Under the pieces are notes generated by a model, which was not told where the DNA came from, did no database searches, and worked only from the letters and a program-made list of their open reading frames with translations. A stretch of 64,000 nt of DNA, taken from Pseudomonas alloputida (GTDB lineage: Bacteria > Pseudomonadota > Gammaproteobacteria > Pseudomonadales > Pseudomonadaceae). How positions within the stretch are numbered: the first letter of the stretch is position 1; each line of letters starts with the position of its first letter. Positions 52,309 to 62,926 of the stretch are shown in pieces. Both the position numbers and the translations under genes were made by a program. The stretch is taken from assembly GCF_021283545.2 (NCBI RefSeq), contig NZ_CP128540.1, positions 3,817,501-3,881,500 of the forward strand, in the 5' to 3' direction.

Positions 52309-52407
52309 GCCGGCCTCTTCGCGGGTGAACCCGCTCCTACAAAGCTTTCGAGGCCTGTGTTGATCCTTTCGCGGGTGAACCCGTTCCTACAGCAGTACCT
52401 GTAGGAG
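52309..52407. repeat. REP units left of the IS110 insertion
   Basis: Two REP units with the core GCGGGTGAACCCG lie at 52309-52341 and 52363-52392. A third, inverted, unit starts at 52398 (CCTGTAGGAG) and is cut after base 52407. Its missing half (CGGGTTCACCCGCGAAGG) resumes at 54453. Rejoining the halves restores a normal REP, so the insertions occurred inside this unit. Confidence 0.85.
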
Positions 52408-52489
52408 ATCACCCAGCCCTTCCGGGCTGCGCTGTCGCGCAGCAAACATGAGGTGTACGGCTTCAGTTCCGCAGCGACGCTGACATTTT

Positions 52490-52720
52490 GAAAAAGAAAA
52501 GGCGGTTGGCCCGGTAGGGCCAGCCGCCTTTTGCTTTGTTAGGGTTCGTGTGCGCGGGACAGAGATCGTAGCCAGCACTGGTGTGTGTCTGCACACCCGC
52601 GTAGGAGAGTGATCCGCACGGTATCGGCGTGAAGTCCCTGTAGGCATCAGCTGATTCAGCTGTGACCACGTATGAGAGAGTGAACCCTTTCGCCACCGTG
52701 TGCCCCGCGCGCCCTTTATC
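52490..52720 (+). ncRNA. Candidate bridge RNA of the complete IS110 element
   Basis: The left non-coding region holds a 16-bp hairpin with loop GGTA at 52497-52532, then two loop regions sharing the constant AGAGTG. Loop 1 has GTAGGAG (52601-52607), identical to the flank left of the insertion (52401-52407). Loop 2 has ATGAGAG (52672-52678), identical to the element's own right end (54098-54104). ACCCG at 52595-52599 is complementary to CGGGT right of the target core. The layout is that of IS110 bridge RNAs, which pair with target and donor. The RNA ends are estimates. Confidence 0.65.
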
Positions 52721-52735
52721 CTGCGAGGATTCATC

Positions 52736-54064
52736 ATGGCGCGCAAGCCTTCCAAGCAACGCTTTACCGTCGTCCATCCCGATTGCGCGGCGATCGATGT
52801 CGGTGGTCGAGAGCATTTCGTGGCGGTCGATCCCCGGCACGAAAATCCCGTCCAGTCGTTCACGTCCTTTACTGACGACCTGCTCAAGATGGCTAACTGG
52901 CTTGAAAGCCTGGGGATCAAGGTCGTTGCCATGGAATCCACGGGGGTTTATTGGATTCCAATTTACGAGATTCTCAGCGAGCGCGGTTTTGACGTTTATC
53001 TCGTCAATGCCAGAGCAACTCGGCAAATCACGGGCCGTAAATCAGATGTGCTGGATTGCCAGTGGATCTGGCAGCTGATGACTCATGGACTGCTCAGAGG
53101 CGCATTCCGCCCCGATGATCTGACCTGCTGCGTCCGGTCATTGGTCAGGCAGCGTGCTTCCAAAGTGAAAGACCAGGCGCAGACGCTGAACCGGATGCAA
53201 AAGGCCATGAGCCAAATGAACATCCAGCTGGCCAATGTCATCAGTGATATTTCCGGTGTAACTGGCATGAAGATTTTGCGGGCCATCTGCGCAGGTGAAC
53301 GGGACCCAGTGCAACTGGCTGAACTAACCGACCGCCGCATCAAGGCAGGCAAGGAGGCTGTCGCTCGGAGTCTTCATGGCAATTGGCGGCGCGAGCATTT
53401 GCATGCGCTAACTCAGGAATTGGCTGCCTATGACTTCCTGGAGCAGCAAATTGCAGATTGTGACGACGCCATAAAAGCCGCGTTAGAGCAGTTGCCGGTG
53501 CTGCAAAACAAGCCAGAGCCATCCAAGAAGCCTTTACGGAGCCCACACCGAAACGGCGCCCAACAGACTGTATTGCATCAGACTTTGTGGAAAGTTCTTG
53601 GCGTGGACCTAACCGCAATTCCAACCATTGGGGTGGACACTGCATTAGTGCTGGCAGGGGAGATCGGTACAGATCTATCACGCTTCCCGTCCTCACAGCA
53701 CTTCTGCTCTTGGTTGGGACTGGCTCCCCCTACCCGAATTTCCGGCGGTCATCGACTGGCAGGTGGTGGGCCCAAAATAGTCAATCGAGCAGCGCAAGCA
53801 CTCAAGCAGGCTGCATCCAATGCCCGTAACGACAAGGGTTTCATTGGCGCATCGCACCGAGCCAGACTGACTCGAATGGATACCAGCTGCGCCATCAAAG
53901 CCACTGCGCATCAGTTGGCACGTCTGGTGTACAACCTGTTAACCAAGAAGCAGGCTTATGTTGAACAAGGTCTTGAGGAGTTCGAAGCCAGAAGCCAAGA
54001 CCGGCAGGTCCGGGCTTTGCTTCGCAAAGCCCGGAAACTGGGGTATCAACTGGTGGCCGCTTGA
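52736..54064 (+). CDS. IS110-family transposase (DEDD recombinase)
   Basis: 442 residues from the ATG at 52736, 6 nt after GAGGA. The N-terminal RuvC-like domain supplies the DEDD residues: D in CAAIDVGG, E in VVAMESTGVYW, and the two D of GRKSDVLDCQW. The C-terminal Transposase_20 domain has IPTIGVDTALVLAGEIG and FCSWLGLAPPTRISGG; a serine after this (about residues 328-332) is expected to attack DNA. Length is normal and no frame break is seen, so the enzyme is probably active. It may also serve the neighbouring transposase-less copy. Confidence 0.93.
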   Translation: MARKPSKQRFTVVHPDCAAIDVGGREHFVAVDPRHENPVQSFTSFTDDLLKMANWLESLGIKVVAMESTGVYWIPIYEILSERGFDVYLVNARATRQITGRKSDVLDCQWIWQLMTHGLLRGAFRPDDLTCCVRSLVRQRASKVKDQAQTLNRMQKAMSQMNIQLANVISDISGVTGMKILRAICAGERDPVQLAELTDRRIKAGKEAVARSLHGNWRREHLHALTQELAAYDFLEQQIADCDDAIKAALEQLPVLQNKPEPSKKPLRSPHRNGAQQTVLHQTLWKVLGVDLTAIPTIGVDTALVLAGEIGTDLSRFPSSQHFCSWLGLAPPTRISGGHRLAGGGPKIVNRAAQALKQAASNARNDKGFIGASHRARLTRMDTSCAIKATAHQLARLVYNLLTKKQAYVEQGLEEFEARSQDRQVRALLRKARKLGYQLVAA

Positions 54065-54104
54065 GTGCTTAGAAAACAATGGGTTGCATTTTGTTTGATG
54101 AGAG

Positions 54105-54452
54105 ATCACCCAGCCCTTCCGGGCTGCGCTGTCGCACAGCAAACAGGATGCGCATGACGTCAGATCTGCACTGACATCGAGATCTAGAAAAGCATTCGCC
54201 GACTGATCCGGGTAGGTCAGCCGCCGAATACTTTGCTATGGTTCCCAATGCGCGGGAAAGAGGCCGTAGACCGCACTGGTGTGCTGCTTTGCTCCCGAAT
54301 GAGAGAGTGGCCCAAATGGCATCGGCGTTAATCCCTGTCGGCACAGCTTGCTGTGACCACGTATAGAAGAGTGAACACTTCGCCGCCATTGACCCCGCGC
54401 GCCTGTTTTTTTCGCTAGAAAGAACAGTGGGTTATCTTTTGTTTGATAGAAG
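54105..54452 (+). mobile_element. Non-autonomous 348-bp IS110 derivative directly behind the complete element
   Basis: It starts with the same ~30 bp as the complete element and follows its left region to the CCCCGCGCGCC just before the transposase start. It then jumps straight to a right end of about 38 bp (CTAGAAAG...GTTTGATAGAAG). The transposase gene is absent. The two left regions are diverged, with conserved blocks and variable loops, so this is not a fresh duplication. It ends at the AG at 54451-54452, where the interrupted REP resumes. It would need a transposase in trans. Confidence 0.75.
54188..54400 (+). ncRNA. Candidate bridge RNA of the non-autonomous IS110 derivative
   Basis: A 36-nt hairpin at 54194-54229, the same length as in the complete element but different in sequence and less perfect, is followed by the same two loops. 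Loop 1 has ATGAGAG (54299-54305), identical to this element's left flank (54098-54104). Loop 2 has ATAGAAG (54363-54369), identical to its own right end (54446-54452). Both are followed by AGTG, as in the complete element. The guides have changed exactly where the matching DNA has changed. The RNA ends are estimates. Confidence 0.6.
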
Positions 54453-54482
54453 CGGGTTCACCCGCGAAGGGGCCGGCACAGG
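54453..54482. repeat. Right half of the REP interrupted by the IS110 insertions
   Basis: CGGGTTCACCCGCGAAGG followed by GGCCGGCACAGG completes the REP unit that begins at 52398. It lies between the short IS110 derivative and the stop of the MHS transporter gene on the other strand. Confidence 0.8.
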
Positions 54483-54494
54483 CAAACTCGACCT

Positions 54495-56927: not shown

Positions 56928-57854
56928 CTACTCGTTCACCAAGCGTTGCAGTACGCCCCCTTCATGGCGCGTCAGGATACGCAGCAACTGGTCGACCAGC
57001 GCCCGGTCCGGCGCATCCAGGTGGAAGTGGTGCCCACCTGGGTGCCAGGAGACTTTCGCCTGGCTGGGCAAGGCGGCCTGACGCCGGGTAAAGGCCTCGC
57101 CGGTGAAGGCCCCCTGGCGGCCGAACAGCAGGTACAACGGGCAGCGGATCTGGCTGAGCAGGTCGCAGGCTTCGCGCTCGGTCAGTGGCATGGGTTCGGG
57201 CAATACCAGTCGCGGGTCGTGGCGCCAGCAATAGCCATCGTCCAGCTGTAGCAGGTCGCGCAGCGCCAGCAGCCGAGCGGCACCTTCCGACAGTTCGGTG
57301 TCCAGCCGCTCGCGGCGTTGCGCCAGGGCGTTGTCCAGGTCGTCGAAGCGACCAACATCCGGCTCGGCAAAACCCGGCAACTGGCTGCGCTGTACCATGC
57401 GCTTGAGCCGGTAGGCCCGCGCCAGGTGCTGCACCCGGTCATCCTCGGCCACCGTGAACGGTGCCCCCATGCCGTCGAGGAAGGTCATGCTGGCAATGCC
57501 ACTGGTCATGGCCGCCAGCAGCGATGCTATACCGGTGCCCATCCCATGGGCCAGCACATGAAATTGCGCCAGGCCCAGGCTGTCGGTTACCGCCAGCATG
57601 TCTTCGGCATGCTCCCACAGGTAATAGCCGCTGTCGTGGCGACGATGGCCAGAACGGCCATGGCCGATCAGGTCGGGGGCCACCACGAAGCAGCCGTCCA
57701 GCATCGGTGCCAGGCGCTCGAACGAGGCAGCGTTATCCAGCCAGCCATGCAAGGCCAATATGGGAATACCGTCTTCTGCCCCCCAGGTGCGAACCGCTAT
57801 TTCAACGCCATCGAGGTCTAGCAGGTGATCTTTCGGACTGCACAGCGAACGCAT
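56928..57854 (-). CDS. Alpha/beta-hydrolase-fold protein lacking the nucleophile serine
   Basis: 308 residues. The fold is clear: PILALHGWLDNAASFERLAP (oxyanion loop), VVAPDLIGHGRSG, a cap domain, CPLYLLFGRQGAF and the final HHFHLDAP with the catalytic histidine. At the nucleophile elbow, where G-x-S-x-G is expected, the sequence is LAHGMGTG, with glycine 104 in place of serine. The gene is otherwise intact. It may have lost hydrolase activity or use another residue, like cofactor-independent members of the fold. Neighbours do not suggest a substrate. Confidence 0.82.
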   Translation of the reverse strand: MRSLCSPKDHLLDLDGVEIAVRTWGAEDGIPILALHGWLDNAASFERLAPMLDGCFVVAPDLIGHGRSGHRRHDSGYYLWEHAEDMLAVTDSLGLAQFHVLAHGMGTGIASLLAAMTSGIASMTFLDGMGAPFTVAEDDRVQHLARAYRLKRMVQRSQLPGFAEPDVGRFDDLDNALAQRRERLDTELSEGAARLLALRDLLQLDDGYCWRHDPRLVLPEPMPLTEREACDLLSQIRCPLYLLFGRQGAFTGEAFTRRQAALPSQAKVSWHPGGHHFHLDAPDRALVDQLLRILTRHEGGVLQRLVNE

Positions 57855-58036
57855 TGCAATTCTCCTTGGCTGAAGCCTGCACCATGACCTGCCTCACCCT
57901 CTCGCAGATGCTCCCTCGCTGCCAGCCCCCCACCGACCCGCGCATACGCAGGACCGACCGCGGCCAACAACTATCTACCGCACCCCGGCGCCTTGATCAG
58001 CGTGGACTATCTCCCCCCACAAAAGAGATGGTGACC

Positions 58037-61000
58037 ATGACAACCCCGACACCGTTGCATCAAAACCAGATAACACGCTCATTACCGAAATGGAGCAAGG
58101 CGCTCCATCCGACGCATACGCGCAAGGTGGTGCAGAGCCTGTACAAGGAATATCTCGATGAAGATGGCAGCCCTTACGCGTGGTATGCCACTGCCGATGA
58201 GCCAACGCGTGAGCAGTTGCACAACGCATTGCAAACCCGTAACAAACGGCTGGCGCAAGTCAAACAGGCGCTAGGCGAGTTCAAGGACATCATCGCGTTC
58301 TGCGGCCCACTGTTGACCGAGCGGTTGAAGCTGAATGTACCCGTAGACAGAGCGCAGTATGTCTTCCAGCCCTTTGAGTCAGAGGCCAACATCTGGGTTG
58401 GCGTTCCCGATGTGGAAACGCCTTTGGTCCCGGACGTGGAAGCGGATGTGCTGGCCACCCGCCCCGTAGGCCAGCCGCAAACACGCAGTTTGCTGGAGGC
58501 TGCCCTGCACAACTTCGAGGGGCTGGACGAAGTCGGTCCTTACAGCAGGCTCACCAACGCCGCTGGCAGCGACACGCCCCTGGCAGGCCTGACGATGGCG
58601 GACTTCGTCAGGCATTGTCGGGCGCTGGACCTTGGCAAACGTTATCAAGACCATCTGCTTGCAACCCATGAAGGCGCCAATCGCGCTGAAATCCAGCGCC
58701 TGTCGATTGCAGCGAACCGTGAGGCCTTGAGGGTCCAGGCATTGATCGCCAGGCTCAAAGGCCTGCTGAGCAAGGCCGGGCTCGATGCGCTTGCGCAGCT
58801 GTGCGACGGCAGCCCTCACCCCACCTATGACAACGAGGCGTTGCATTGCTGGAACTTCAACCTCTTCGATGTCCCCGTCCACGAAGTACTGTTCATCGGG
58901 CCAGACAACCCTTACCGCACTAACCCCTGCATTGTGTATGTCCCTGGCGACAGCGAGCACCCGGTAAGGGAGTTCGCTTCTCGTCAGGAAGCGGGCAAGC
59001 ACCTGCGCAGCCGGCTATTGCAAAGCGAGTTTCGCCGCGCCTTGGTGCATTTCGCCTACAAGGACAGGCAAAAAGAACTTGCCGTTAAGCTGGAAATTGC
59101 GCTGTTCGAAGAGGATGAAGCGGGCATACGCAAACCCCGAATCATGCCAGTGATCCCTTTCACGCTCTCGCCAATCCGAACCGACCCTTGGACGAACCTA
59201 TACAACGCACACCTTGCGCGCATGAAGGCCGACGCAAAAACCATTGCAGTCCCTACCGCCGAAGTCGACGCCAACGCCCGCAATGAGCGTCTGAAGTACT
59301 GGTTCGACCTGGGGATGAACGTGCTGAATGTCGCCGCGTTCTTCGTGCCGGGGTTGAACACGGTCATGCTAGGCGTTTTTGCTTACGACCTGATGAGCTC
59401 TGTTTTTACCGGGTTCGAGGCCTGGGAAGAAGGTGATACCCGGCAGGCACTGGCGCAGCTGGAATCATTGGCCATCAACGCGGGCGTGATTGCCGGCTTT
59501 GCAGTGGGCACCAGGATCGTCCAGGCGTCTGGCTTTGTTGATGCACTGAAAAGTGTATGGCATGAAGACAAGGAGGTGCTCTGGCACCCCGACATGAAAC
59601 CCTATGCGAGCACGGCGGCTATTCCTGAGGGGGCTCAACCCGATTTGCTCGGCCATGTGCACGTCGATGGAAAGACCTACCTGAAGCTGGATGGGACCCT
59701 GTACGAGGTGTTTCAGGGCGCTGATCAGCAATGGCGCGTGCGCCACCCTGATGACGCTCAGGCCTATGCCCCACGCTTGCTGCATCATGGTAACGCCCGC
59801 TGGCAACTGGCCCATGAACAGCCTCTGGAATGGGAACGTGAACAGCTTGCGCGCCGCCTCGGCAGCCATAGCGCAGGCCTGGACGACAGCGAACTGGACC
59901 ATGCCATGCGCACTACCGGTACCGATCCAGACGTGCTGCGCCGTGCCCAGGCAGCGGGCCTGCCTCCACCCGCTTTGTTGATCGACACGCTGCAGCGGTT
60001 GCAACTGGACAATCAGACACAACAGATCATCAACTGCGTACGCCATGGGTTGCCGCTGGCTGCGTACAAGAACTTTGCCTTGCCTGAGTTGCTGCGCCTG
60101 CCGGGGTGGCCCGAGGGGAACGTGCTGAAGGTTTACCAAGGGCCAGAACCCTGGGGCGAATCGGTGCGCTACGGCCCCCCTCACACGCTGGGCCAGACAG
60201 AAATCGAAATTACCCGTACCGACCTGGACAATGGCCAGTTGAGCCAAACCGTGCTGGATCAGATGGATGAAGAAGCCATTGAGCAGTTGCTCGGTGACAC
60301 ACCAACCGAGCACCGAGCGTCCGCACTGAACAACAAACTCGCGCAACACCTGGAACAGCATCGCGAGGCGCTGTTCGAGAGCCTGCAACAAAGACGCCGT
60401 CCCACACACCCACCCACTGCACAAACCCTCGCCCGGCAGTTTCCCGGGCTGCCGGACAGCGCGCTTGAAGAGTTGCTTGCCAACATCAGCAACGCCGAAC
60501 GGGAACGTCTGACAAACGGACGAGTGCCGCTTCGCATTGCCGAGGAAGCACGCCTTCTGCAAGCTCGAGCGCGGCTTGATCGTGCCCTCCTCGGCCTGTT
60601 CAGGCCCAGCCTGGCCAACGACGACAGTCTACGCATCAAGCAGGCGCTGCAAGCCGCGCACCCGCAGGCTGAACCGGCCCGGTTGCTGCAACTCGCCCTA
60701 GGTGATCGCCAGCACTGCGCCTCACTGCTTGGCCAACAGCCCATCAACCCCAGGTTCCGCTCCCCTTTGCGATTGGCCAACGGCCGGCTGGGCTATCCCC
60801 TGAGCGGCCGAGGCCTGCAAGGACGCGCCTTGCCGGCTGCACGTCGACTCCGGGCGCTCTACCCCGAACTCAGCAGCGAGCAAATCACCGGGCTACAAGC
60901 CGAACTGGCTCGAGGAGGCGACCTGGGTAGCGCGATCAACCAGCTGGAGGTCGAGCAGCGTACTCTCAACCGAGATCTCAACCGTTGGGTAAGCACCGCC

Positions 61001-62926
61001 CGCACCCTTGAAGAGCGCTTTGATCGCCAGCAATGCACCGAGCGACTGATGAGCGCTTCCCGCCGTGAAGGTGGCGCGCAAGCCGAAACACTGGTACTGG
61101 ACCGTATGCAGCTCGAAGCGCTACCCGCTTTCACTGCACGCATGCCGCATATTCGCAATCTCAGGCTCGAGGGGCTGCAGATGCGGCGCCTGGAGGGCAG
61201 CTTCCTGACGAACTTCCCTAACCTGGAAACCCTGGAAATCGTCGGCAACCCGGACATCGATGCAGAAACATTGTTCGAGGCGCTGAGGTCGGCACCGCGG
61301 CTACGCGAGCTGGGCCTGACAGACAATGGCCTGACCACCCTTTCACCCACCGCCCAACAGGCCATCGGGGCAATGCCCGGCTTGCGACTCCTGTGGCTCA
61401 GTCGCAACCGGCTGCAACTCGACACCACCAGTTTGGGCTTCCTGACGCGCCTGCCCCTGGATGCCCTCGGCCTGGCCCATAATCAAATCACCCTCGACGA
61501 AAGCCTTGCCGCCCAGTTTCAGGACATGATCCACCCCGTACTACTGCACTTGTCAGGCAACCCACTGCAACTGGCACCCGACCTGCGCTTCATGGCCCGT
61601 CTTGTCCACCTGGAGCTTGAGCGTTGCGAACTGCAGCAGTGGCCCGACAGCCTGACCGTCCTGATGAGCCAGCCCCAGTACCAACTGCGCTATCTGAACC
61701 TTTCGTCCAACCGCATTCGTACCCTGCCAGACTTGCCTGGTGTGCTGCGTACCCCGTTTGCCCGCGATGTCGCCGCGCACTTGCCGGAGCGCCGTTGGCT
61801 GTTCAACTACAACACCCTGGAAGCCCAGACACGTGCACGCCTGGGCAGCAGCGGCGTCAACGTCTTCGAACACGCAGAAGACGTGCCACTGTGGCAAGGC
61901 GTTTTCCGTGGCGAGGCGAGCAATGCCGAGGAGCAGCTGTGGAGCGATCTGTTCGACCAAGGTGAAAACGCAGCGCTGCTGGGCGTACTCGAACGTCTTG
62001 CCCAGTCGGCAGAAGCGCAGCGTGATGGCGAGGCCCTGAGGACGCGCGTCTGGAAGCTGCTGGATGACGCTGCCCACGACACCGTGCTGCGTGAGCGCCT
62101 CGCCACCGTGGCCGGCGACTTCCCGCCAACCTGTGGCGACGCGGGTGCCGACGCGTTCAGTGCCTTGGAGATAGAAGTGCTGGCCCACGAAGCTGCAGCC
62201 GTCGCCGGCAGTCGGCCGGCTGATCTACTGAGCCTGTATGGCAAGTTGTATCGACGCAGTCAGGTCAATCAACTGGCCGATCGCATCAGCTGGAGAAGGT
62301 CCTTGCGCAAACAGGCGCTGCTCGACGGGGCCTTCGATGAAAACCTCCCCCCCTACGATGAGCTCGACGACCCCTCAGCCTTTCCGGACAGCGAACTTCA
62401 AACGGGGCTGGTGGACGATGTGGAGGTACGTTTGGCCTTGCGCCAGTCGTTGGCCAGCGCGCTGGACTACCCCGAGCCGAGCCGAGGCATGCTGTACCGC
62501 AATACGGCCAGAATCAACGACACAATCATCGAAATGGTGAAAGCTGCGGTCCTTTCCCTGGACAGGGATGCCATCGCTCGGGAGCAATGGTTGACCCAGC
62601 AGCCGGGCTGGGTCGAGTACTTGAAACGAGAGCATGCGGCCCAGTTCAGCCTGATCACCGACTTTTGGCGGCCAGGCCTTGATTACCTCTATTACTGCCT
62701 AGATGAAACCGCCGAGCCGGTGACATCCCTGGACAGCTCGGTGCGACGAGCCTTGGCCAGGGTCATGCCTGAAAGCCCGGTGGATGCTGACGGCAGGCTA
62801 CGTCGCGTAGTGCTCAACGAGCAGCAGTATCGCCAGGGCGTTGACGCGCTGACTGCCGAGCAGCAGCAGGTTGAAACCGGTCTGCTGATCAGCCTCACCC
62901 GCCAGACGCAAACAATCGGCCGCTGA
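58037..62926 (+). CDS. Leucine-rich-repeat NEL-type E3 ubiquitin-protein ligase effector
   Basis: 1629 residues from the ATG at 58037 (an ATG at 58028 is also in frame). The first ~560 residues form a helical domain of the dermonecrotic-toxin type (DUF6543-like), with a hydrophobic stretch at about 425-495. A long helical middle follows. Leucine-rich repeats lie at about 1018-1228 (LRELGLTDNGLTTL, LRLLWLSRNRLQL, LRYLNLSSNRIRTL). The C-terminal NEL domain contains the catalytic cysteine C1366 in PTCGDAGADAF. NEL enzymes (IpaH, SspH, SlrP) ubiquitinate host proteins. There is no signal peptide and no secretion genes are adjacent; the route out is unknown. No immunity gene is seen. Confidence 0.87.
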   Translation: MTTPTPLHQNQITRSLPKWSKALHPTHTRKVVQSLYKEYLDEDGSPYAWYATADEPTREQLHNALQTRNKRLAQVKQALGEFKDIIAFCGPLLTERLKLNVPVDRAQYVFQPFESEANIWVGVPDVETPLVPDVEADVLATRPVGQPQTRSLLEAALHNFEGLDEVGPYSRLTNAAGSDTPLAGLTMADFVRHCRALDLGKRYQDHLLATHEGANRAEIQRLSIAANREALRVQALIARLKGLLSKAGLDALAQLCDGSPHPTYDNEALHCWNFNLFDVPVHEVLFIGPDNPYRTNPCIVYVPGDSEHPVREFASRQEAGKHLRSRLLQSEFRRALVHFAYKDRQKELAVKLEIALFEEDEAGIRKPRIMPVIPFTLSPIRTDPWTNLYNAHLARMKADAKTIAVPTAEVDANARNERLKYWFDLGMNVLNVAAFFVPGLNTVMLGVFAYDLMSSVFTGFEAWEEGDTRQALAQLESLAINAGVIAGFAVGTRIVQASGFVDALKSVWHEDKEVLWHPDMKPYASTAAIPEGAQPDLLGHVHVDGKTYLKLDGTLYEVFQGADQQWRVRHPDDAQAYAPRLLHHGNARWQLAHEQPLEWEREQLARRLGSHSAGLDDSELDHAMRTTGTDPDVLRRAQAAGLPPPALLIDTLQRLQLDNQTQQIINCVRHGLPLAAYKNFALPELLRLPGWPEGNVLKVYQGPEPWGESVRYGPPHTLGQTEIEITRTDLDNGQLSQTVLDQMDEEAIEQLLGDTPTEHRASALNNKLAQHLEQHREALFESLQQRRRPTHPPTAQTLARQFPGLPDSALEELLANISNAERERLTNGRVPLRIAEEARLLQARARLDRALLGLFRPSLANDDSLRIKQALQAAHPQAEPARLLQLALGDRQHCASLLGQQPINPRFRSPLRLANGRLGYPLSGRGLQGRALPAARRLRALYPELSSEQITGLQAELARGGDLGSAINQLEVEQRTLNRDLNRWVSTARTLEERFDRQQCTERLMSASRREGGAQAETLVLDRMQLEALPAFTARMPHIRNLRLEGLQMRRLEGSFLTNFPNLETLEIVGNPDIDAETLFEALRSAPRLRELGLTDNGLTTLSPTAQQAIGAMPGLRLLWLSRNRLQLDTTSLGFLTRLPLDALGLAHNQITLDESLAAQFQDMIHPVLLHLSGNPLQLAPDLRFMARLVHLELERCELQQWPDSLTVLMSQPQYQLRYLNLSSNRIRTLPDLPGVLRTPFARDVAAHLPERRWLFNYNTLEAQTRARLGSSGVNVFEHAEDVPLWQGVFRGEASNAEEQLWSDLFDQGENAALLGVLERLAQSAEAQRDGEALRTRVWKLLDDAAHDTVLRERLATVAGDFPPTCGDAGADAFSALEIEVLAHEAAAVAGSRPADLLSLYGKLYRRSQVNQLADRISWRRSLRKQALLDGAFDENLPPYDELDDPSAFPDSELQTGLVDDVEVRLALRQSLASALDYPEPSRGMLYRNTARINDTIIEMVKAAVLSLDRDAIAREQWLTQQPGWVEYLKREHAAQFSLITDFWRPGLDYLYYCLDETAEPVTSLDSSVRRALARVMPESPVDADGRLRRVVLNEQQYRQGVDALTAEQQQVETGLLISLTRQTQTIGR

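Follow-up and report, generated by a model that had tools for sequence, protein, structure and literature searches.

A probable RNA-guided satellite of an ISPpu9-type IS110 element in Pseudomonas alloputida

Two head-to-tail insertions in a REP sequence

The window analyzed here, a stretch of 64,000 nt of Pseudomonas alloputida (contig NZ_CP128540.1, positions 3,817,501 to 3,881,500), contains a complete insertion sequence (IS) of the IS110 family, of the type published as ISPpu9, and directly downstream of it a 348-bp element that lacks a transposase gene. The two are very probably RNA-guided insertions arranged head to tail, the short element being a satellite that homes on the right end of its helper, the complete element, by means of its own RNA. 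The features of the locus are listed below in window coordinates.

52401–52407, plus strand: left target half-site GTAGGAG, the left part of a Pseudomonas repetitive extragenic palindromic (REP) sequence, with core AG at 52406–52407
52408–54104, plus strand: complete ISPpu9-type IS110 element, 1697 bp
52530–52712, minus strand: Asr9, approximate extent inferred from the -35 box letters CCTTCCAAGCAA at 52748, a length of about 180 nt, and a terminator-like stem at 52497–52532
52554–52709, plus strand: bridge-type RNA of the complete element (modelled core), overlapping the 5' leader of tnp
52572–52575, plus strand: candidate right target guide of the complete element (weak)
52601–52607, plus strand: left target guide GTAGGAG of the complete element, equal to the REP flank
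52627–52633, plus strand: candidate right donor guide of the complete element (weak)
52672–52678, plus strand: left donor guide ATGAGAG of the complete element, equal to its own right end
52736–54064, plus strand: tnp, IS110 DEDD/Transposase_20 recombinase, 442 aa
54098–54104, plus strand: ATGAGAG, serving both as the complete element's right end and as the short element's target half-site
54105–54452, plus strand: short transposase-less element, 348 bp, the putative equivalent of the published ssr9 locus
54252–54399, plus strand: bridge-type RNA of the short element (modelled core)
54270–54273, plus strand: candidate right target guide ACCG of the short element (weak)
54299–54305, plus strand: left target guide ATGAGAG of the short element, equal to the helper's right end
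54363–54369, plus strand: left donor guide ATAGAAG of the short element, equal to its own right end
54446–54452, plus strand: right end ATAGAAG of the short element
54453–54486, no strand assigned: right part of the interrupted REP (CGGGTTCACCCGCGAAGG...)

The tnp product carries the IS110 family domains PF01548 (DEDD, 1.3e-21) and PF02371 (Transposase_20, 1.7e-12), scores 294.6 bits against a cut-off of 140 with NF033542 (NCBIfam ‘IS110 family RNA-guided transposase’), and matches the solved IS621 recombinase at 1.2e-06. A structured RNA, as is characteristic of IS110, is predicted in the long non-coding left region, and judged by its protein and by the position of this RNA the complete element is an IS110 member. 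The genome (6.44 Mb, single contig) contains 10 complete copies, all preceded by GTAGGAG and identical in their non-coding left regions. One of the intact helpers, L006, lacks a short element, and its ATGAGAG end joins the REP directly. A complete-type element of 1146 bp in another genome (L130 in G059) has a broken and shortened tnp, while its ends and guides still match.

A reading made from the sequence alone (the sequence-only reading) had pointed to four guide heptamers in the non-coding regions of the two elements and three heptamers at their junctions. All of them could be read directly at those positions, and the proposed equalities hold throughout the window: the first loop of each RNA equals the target flank, and the second loop equals the right end of the element itself. 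The form N5-AG-AGTG occurs exactly twice in each non-coding region (52408–52735 and 54105–54420), always at a guide site, so that no choice among many sites was involved. Over the two strands of the window, ATGAGAG and GTAGGAG occur four times each and ATAGAAG five times, counting the guide and junction sites. The AG core also proposed is the dinucleotide common to the junctions, but the flank has CG in the relic L164 and in L129, and GG in L131. L164 (G000:C1:6161292-6161411) is an internally deleted relic of the short element located after ATGAGCG, in which a core base is off the guide.

Covariation of guides with flanks and the fold of the RNA

Relatives were represented by 29 loci from a search of genome contigs and a genus-level search, in which 15 of 398 genomes matched, this one included. 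The guide table has 43 element rows, of which this genome contributed 16. Flanks were positioned at the best match at most 45 nt upstream of the left-end motif, and right ends were located by the motif TGTTTG(N5)AG alone, independently of the guide; the flank of L079 was placed by hand as the contig starts at the flank, and row L131 was added by hand. Left out were 18 cut-off copies from this genome whose left end is absent from the sequence fetched. No row was assigned to L089 and L091–L103 (distant, partial, or cut-off loci) or to L108–L117 (nine 43–45% relatives and one fragment). Where read, L105 and L106 agree letter for letter with L080 and L079, and L132, L133, L137, and copies L125, L135, L139, L145, and L147 of genome G039 were inspected without being tabulated.

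Extended to copies from other Pseudomonas genomes, the equality of the first loop and the left flank holds at 7 of 7 positions in 40 of the 43 rows, and that of the second loop and the right end in all 39 rows with a motif-located end (3 of 42 rows gave none). Among the tabulated relatives, elements with tnp have the target guides GTAGGAG, GTGGGAG, or GAGGGAG, each equal to the flank of its own element, and the donor guides are ATGAGAG, ATAAGAG, ATAGGAG, ATGGGAG, or ATAGAAG, each equal to its own right end. By row, the donor ends are ATGAGAG (25), ATAGAAG (7), ATAAGAG (4), ATAGGAG (2), and ATGGGAG (1), with the matching guide in all. Fixed guides beside varying flanks, which the sequence-only reading had named as refuting evidence, were looked for, and the outcome favors guidance, as the guides change along with the ends.

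The strength of this covariation was assessed by swapping flanks among RNA clusters (97% identity outside the guides) in 3000 permutations. The left target guide (LT) scored 0.964 against 0.762 expected (18 clusters) and the left donor guide (LD) 0.991 against 0.811 (16 clusters), with no permutation as good in either case; at the coarsest clustering (9 target and 7 donor clusters), the permutation fractions were 0 and 0.001. A scan of all registers found a single place for each left guide, with 0.97 and 0.99 against means of 0.28 and 0.25. That the matches merely reflect coincidence, or common ancestry of AG-rich heptamers, is scarcely credible: although almost all guides end in AG and flanks of the same type are alike (the permuted match already reaches 0.76–0.81), the permutations and the right ends found without the guide reject coincidence at this level. 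The loops thus covary with target and donor flanks across species, which supports an RNA-guided family. That IS110 bridge RNAs specify target and donor is established (PMC11208160, PMC11208158, and PMC11187229); RNA guidance of IS110 has been published since 2024, and the covariation is therefore a confirmation, whereas the satellite and its address are the new part.

The consensus fold of 16 sequences has 42 pairs, 16 of which are changed on both sides, and 95.7% of cells are paired compared to 34–46% when slid. None of 500 shuffles reached four of the five fold measures, and the fifth (further pair types) was reached by 23 of 500. A search of Rfam returned only 7 matches, all below gathering scores, and a sigma-70 consensus scan found no promoter; statements on promoters here rest on PMC8450116. 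The modelled fold modestly favors the plus strand as the guide RNA, with a consensus energy of -44.3 against -42.2 kcal/mol on the minus strand, a lower energy in 13 of the 16 sequences, and a decrease of paired cells from 95.7% to 82.3% when the plus-strand pairs are read on the opposite strand. It is unlikely that Asr9, transcribed from the opposite strand, is the active guide and that the plus-strand matches are its complement, even though the minus strand has a nearly equal consensus fold of its own (95.3% of cells paired) and the ISPpu9 report describes Asr9 as 4.6 times as abundant as Ssr9, with a half-life above 60 min and a 3–4 fold increase in transposition upon overproduction (PMC8450116). 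The sole RNA reported for the short element is on the plus strand, which the fold also modestly favors.

The left target and left donor guides both lie 3' of their predicted hairpins. The layout of IS621, in which the left guide is 5' and the right guide 3' of the loop hairpin, was tested on these RNAs, which turned out to be mirrored. The scan for right guides covered all RNA registers. In the registers chosen by the scan itself, the values of p over three clustering levels were 0.02–0.07 (4 nt) and 0.07–0.23 (6 nt) for the right target guide, and 0.07–0.17 (5 nt) and 0.04–0.12 (7 nt) for the right donor guide. The best candidates lie 5' of the hairpin. The letters CCCG preceding the target guide score equally as a right guide, but are invariant among clusters and hence uninformative. 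The position of the left guides is firm, whereas that of the right guides is weak.

Separate mobility of the short element and its relation to Ssr9

Seventeen copies of the short element are present in this genome, 16 at 100% and one at 99% identity (rounded table). Thirteen follow the helper's TTTGATGAGAG end, namely at 9 of the 10 intact helpers, at one decayed helper, and three times within two arrays; the other four lie elsewhere, three after ATGAGAG and one after ATGGGAG. Copy parsing covered 16 of the 17, and for one of these 16, L061, no right end was located. In all nine helper-satellite places read (of ten, the end of L061 not being found), the last satellite is flanked on its right by the REP half CGGG(C/T)T..CCCGCG. 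Away from a helper, an exact ATGAGAG left flank was found at five sites (L028; L030; L044 and L127, which share one; L128; and L168 on a plasmid), and a flank one base off at three (L031, L131, and L164); in L131 the guide itself is decayed, reading ATGAAAG and differing from the flank at two bases.

A lone 348-bp copy, 100% identical, is present at CCAATGAGAG|GCCGG in the Pseudomonas aeruginosa plasmid NZ_CP124659.1; the 3.3 kb that were read contain no IS110 gene, and the complete element matches nothing else in this record. Seven (H5–H11) of the 30 plasmid records listed, from 308 that matched the flanks, keep both flanks at 100% in 475 rather than 823 bases, and in the four of these that were fetched the flanks meet exactly at ...ATGAGAG|GCCGG. 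These exact empty sites indicate that 348 bp were inserted precisely after the heptamer spelled by the target loop of the element itself, in a gene without visible relation to IS110. The short element has no transposase gene, for which 348 bp would be too small, and it moves as a unit; it is thus a non-autonomous mobile element. The sequence-only account of two elements was right about the guides, but overlooked that the shorter one lacks tnp, moves by itself, corresponds to ssr9, and carries the address of its helper.

No copy was found in a phage collection by blastn with the short element or with the region of L128, and two exact patterns had no match in IMG/VR. An RNA search at the order level matched this genome only (1 of 390), and one among relatives matched 6 of 194, all already in the genus RNA search (13 of 398). 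In two arrays of this genome, L161 (G000:C1:2627700-2631900) and L162 (G000:C1:828000-831700), additional short elements and 3' fragments of tnp alternate, and the joints fall on AG dinucleotides within tnp (...AG|AAGCCAAG at three and ...AG|CCAGACTG at one), as if the recombinase had used cryptic AG sites.

The short element is related to the helper, with 40 of its first 41 nt the same as the helper's left end, a common TTTTGTTTGAT stretch near the right end, and 73% identity over about 300 nt between the non-coding regions. These common ends would suit a passive derivative moved by the helper's bridge RNA, its own guides being vestigial. This is quite improbable, since the helper's guides are GTAGGAG and ATGAGAG, yet the insertion site of the short element is ATGAGAG and its right end ATAGAAG, as its own guides specify, and the same logic appears with different letters in Pseudomonas sp. 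CFII64.

Judged by position and geometry, the short element is the published ssr9 locus. For ISPpu9 of Pseudomonas putida KT2440, Gomez-Garcia et al. (2021; PMC8450116) described Asr9, which is transcribed antisense, and Ssr9, a downstream sense RNA of about 180 nt on the tnp strand, together with orphan and tandem copies of ssr9, A and B boxes, and an AG repeat. The element in the window has the insertion into a REP, the AG repeat, the published leader of 84 + 244 = 328 nt before the tnp start (52408–52735), and the published Pasr9 -35 letters (at 52748). An XbaI site is located at 54183, and the published Ssr9 start, 58 nt further, maps to about 54242–54246, so that an Ssr9 of about 180 nt covers both loops on this map. 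We read Ssr9 as the bridge-type RNA of the satellite and Asr9 as an antisense of the helper's RNA; their complementarity would follow from homologous regions being transcribed on opposite strands.

The published interpretation differs: ssr9 would be part of ISPpu9, encoding a regulatory small RNA that sponges Asr9, and the segment between A and B, with or without ssr9, would move as one transposon. Ssr9 indeed pairs with Asr9 in vitro and weakens by about 30% the stimulation of tnp translation, and deletion of ssr9 barely altered transposition (PMC8450116). We nevertheless consider this interpretation unlikely, because the 348-bp element, for which exact empty sites exist, moves by itself and has relatives in genomes without a tnp match, because the 73% identity of oppositely transcribed regions explains the complementarity, and because a regulatory RNA leaves the equality of its loops with two unrelated junction sequences unexplained. 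The regulatory and guide roles of Ssr9 are not exclusive.

The proposed satellite model and its significance

In the proposed model, an ISPpu9-type element would have entered the REP at GTAGGAG|CGGG, directed by the GTAGGAG loop of its bridge-type RNA, and the 348-bp satellite would next have inserted at the helper's right end, into the junction ATGAGAG|CGGG created there. In the satellite RNA, the target loop would hold the address of that right end and the donor loop that of the satellite's own right end (ATAGAAG), and the helper recombinase would act in trans on the satellite RNA and ends, with strand exchange at the AG core. Common ends, a common RNA fold, and the choice of target suggest this mobilization in trans; binding of the satellite RNA by the recombinase and a circular intermediate would be part of it. 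Wherever both were read, the order is always helper then satellite, with the REP halves outside. Sequential insertion probably fits this order better than a helper-satellite circle, since such a circle, entering the REP through its internal ATGAGAG|ATCACCC with the helper's guides, would reverse the order. The letters at 54098–54112, ATGAGAG|ATCACCC, are also those expected of the junction of the helper's own circle; the chromosome may therefore carry a permanent donor-like site, which could drive rearrangements with REPs.

A second lineage is provided by Pseudomonas sp. CFII64 (L081), whose helper has the right end ATAGGAG. The element that follows it, of 361 bp and lacking tnp, has the target guide ATAGGAG, and its own end and donor guide are both ATGGGAG. 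Together with the P. putida type, this gives two lineages with a target guide identical to the local helper's right end. The CFII64 satellite RNA shares 79% identity with the Ssr9-type RNA and 80% with the RNA of its own helper, and in a small tree it falls outside the well-supported Ssr9 clade, with weak placement of its own. Eight genomes of the genus have an RNA match without a complete tnp, two with tnp fragments and six without a tnp match at E 1e-20 (G039, G081, G193, G311, G342, and G368, the RNA matches being weak in G311 and G342). We think it somewhat more probable than not that IS110 has RNA-guided satellites with a bridge-type RNA of their own, in which the target loop has been rewritten to the helper's end, so that the guide tracks the helper between species while the donor loop and end diverge, that Ssr9 is such a guide, and that the guides of this subgroup are mirrored relative to IS621.

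Several results weigh against this reading, in addition to the nearly equal minus-strand fold and the weak right guides. The target guide is unmatched in 3 of the 43 rows, by one base in L031 and in apparently decayed form in L129 and L131. Another tnp-less lineage, in G039 (L125, L135, L139, L143, L145, and L147), a genome without a tnp match, has a REP-type target guide, and homing on a helper's end is thus not universal. Its elements measure 253–264 bp to the nearest right end (three copies), beyond which lies a further right-end-like site; two right ends read ATAGGAG like the donor guide, whereas that of L143 reads GTAGGAG against the donor guide ATAGGAG. According to PMC8450116, deleting ssr9 hardly changed transposition, even in F1, which has no other copy, and the kanamycin (Km) marker of the assay was at the XbaI site, which is inside the short element by this map. 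In KT2440, moreover, the tnp end and the ssr9 end are reported to have the same 14 nt before AG (PMC8450116), whereas in this genome the last three of these differ between the two ends. Given that statement, KT2440 may represent a variant whose helper RNA can move both parts together, which would reconcile the ssr9-deletion result and the identical B boxes with the satellite reading.

Compared with known systems, the locus resembles ISPpu9 of KT2440 in the 328-nt tnp leader, the Pasr9 -35 letters, the REP and AG repeat, ssr9 downstream of tnp, and the tandem and orphan copies (PMC8450116). It differs in that Ssr9 is a regulatory small RNA there and is read as a satellite bridge RNA here, and in that identical 14-nt B boxes fail here. 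Like IS621, it has a DEDD recombinase and a non-coding RNA in the left region, with the target loop before the donor loop (PMC11208160, PMC11208158), and the left guides of both loops equal the top strand of the left target and left donor, core included; insertion into REPs is also common to both, for IS621 according to the title of a cited work. Unlike IS621, the core is AG instead of CT, and the left guides lie 3' of apical hairpins, where IS621 has the order stem, left target guide, stem loop, and right target guide. The candidate guide order, with the top-strand match 5' of the bottom-strand match, resembles the seekRNA of IS1111 (PMC11187229), yet the RNA here precedes tnp, as it does in the IS110 type, for which that work found the reverse order. 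As with bacterial miniature inverted-repeat transposable elements (MITEs) and non-autonomous IS derivatives, an element without tnp would be moved in trans (PMC10969869), but the satellite keeps and re-addresses its own guide RNA and does not depend on terminal repeats alone. The system would work like a bridge-RNA system, though not with the hairpin layout of IS621. Neither Ssr9 as a bridge RNA nor a tnp-less IS110 element with its own guide was found in the open-licence PMC literature among the matches listed. Elsewhere in the window (57461–62926), there is an open frame of 1821 codons with apparent leucine-rich repeats.

If true, the short element would be a natural satellite of bridge-RNA systems, consisting of about 350 bp with little beyond a guide RNA and two ends and using the recombinase of its helper. 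It would represent a natural minimal design in which guide and donor are supplied apart from the enzyme, as well as a naturally occurring example of retargeting to an address that moves, and would explain the complementarity of Ssr9 and Asr9. Whether IS110 subgroups differ in their guide order would also become testable.

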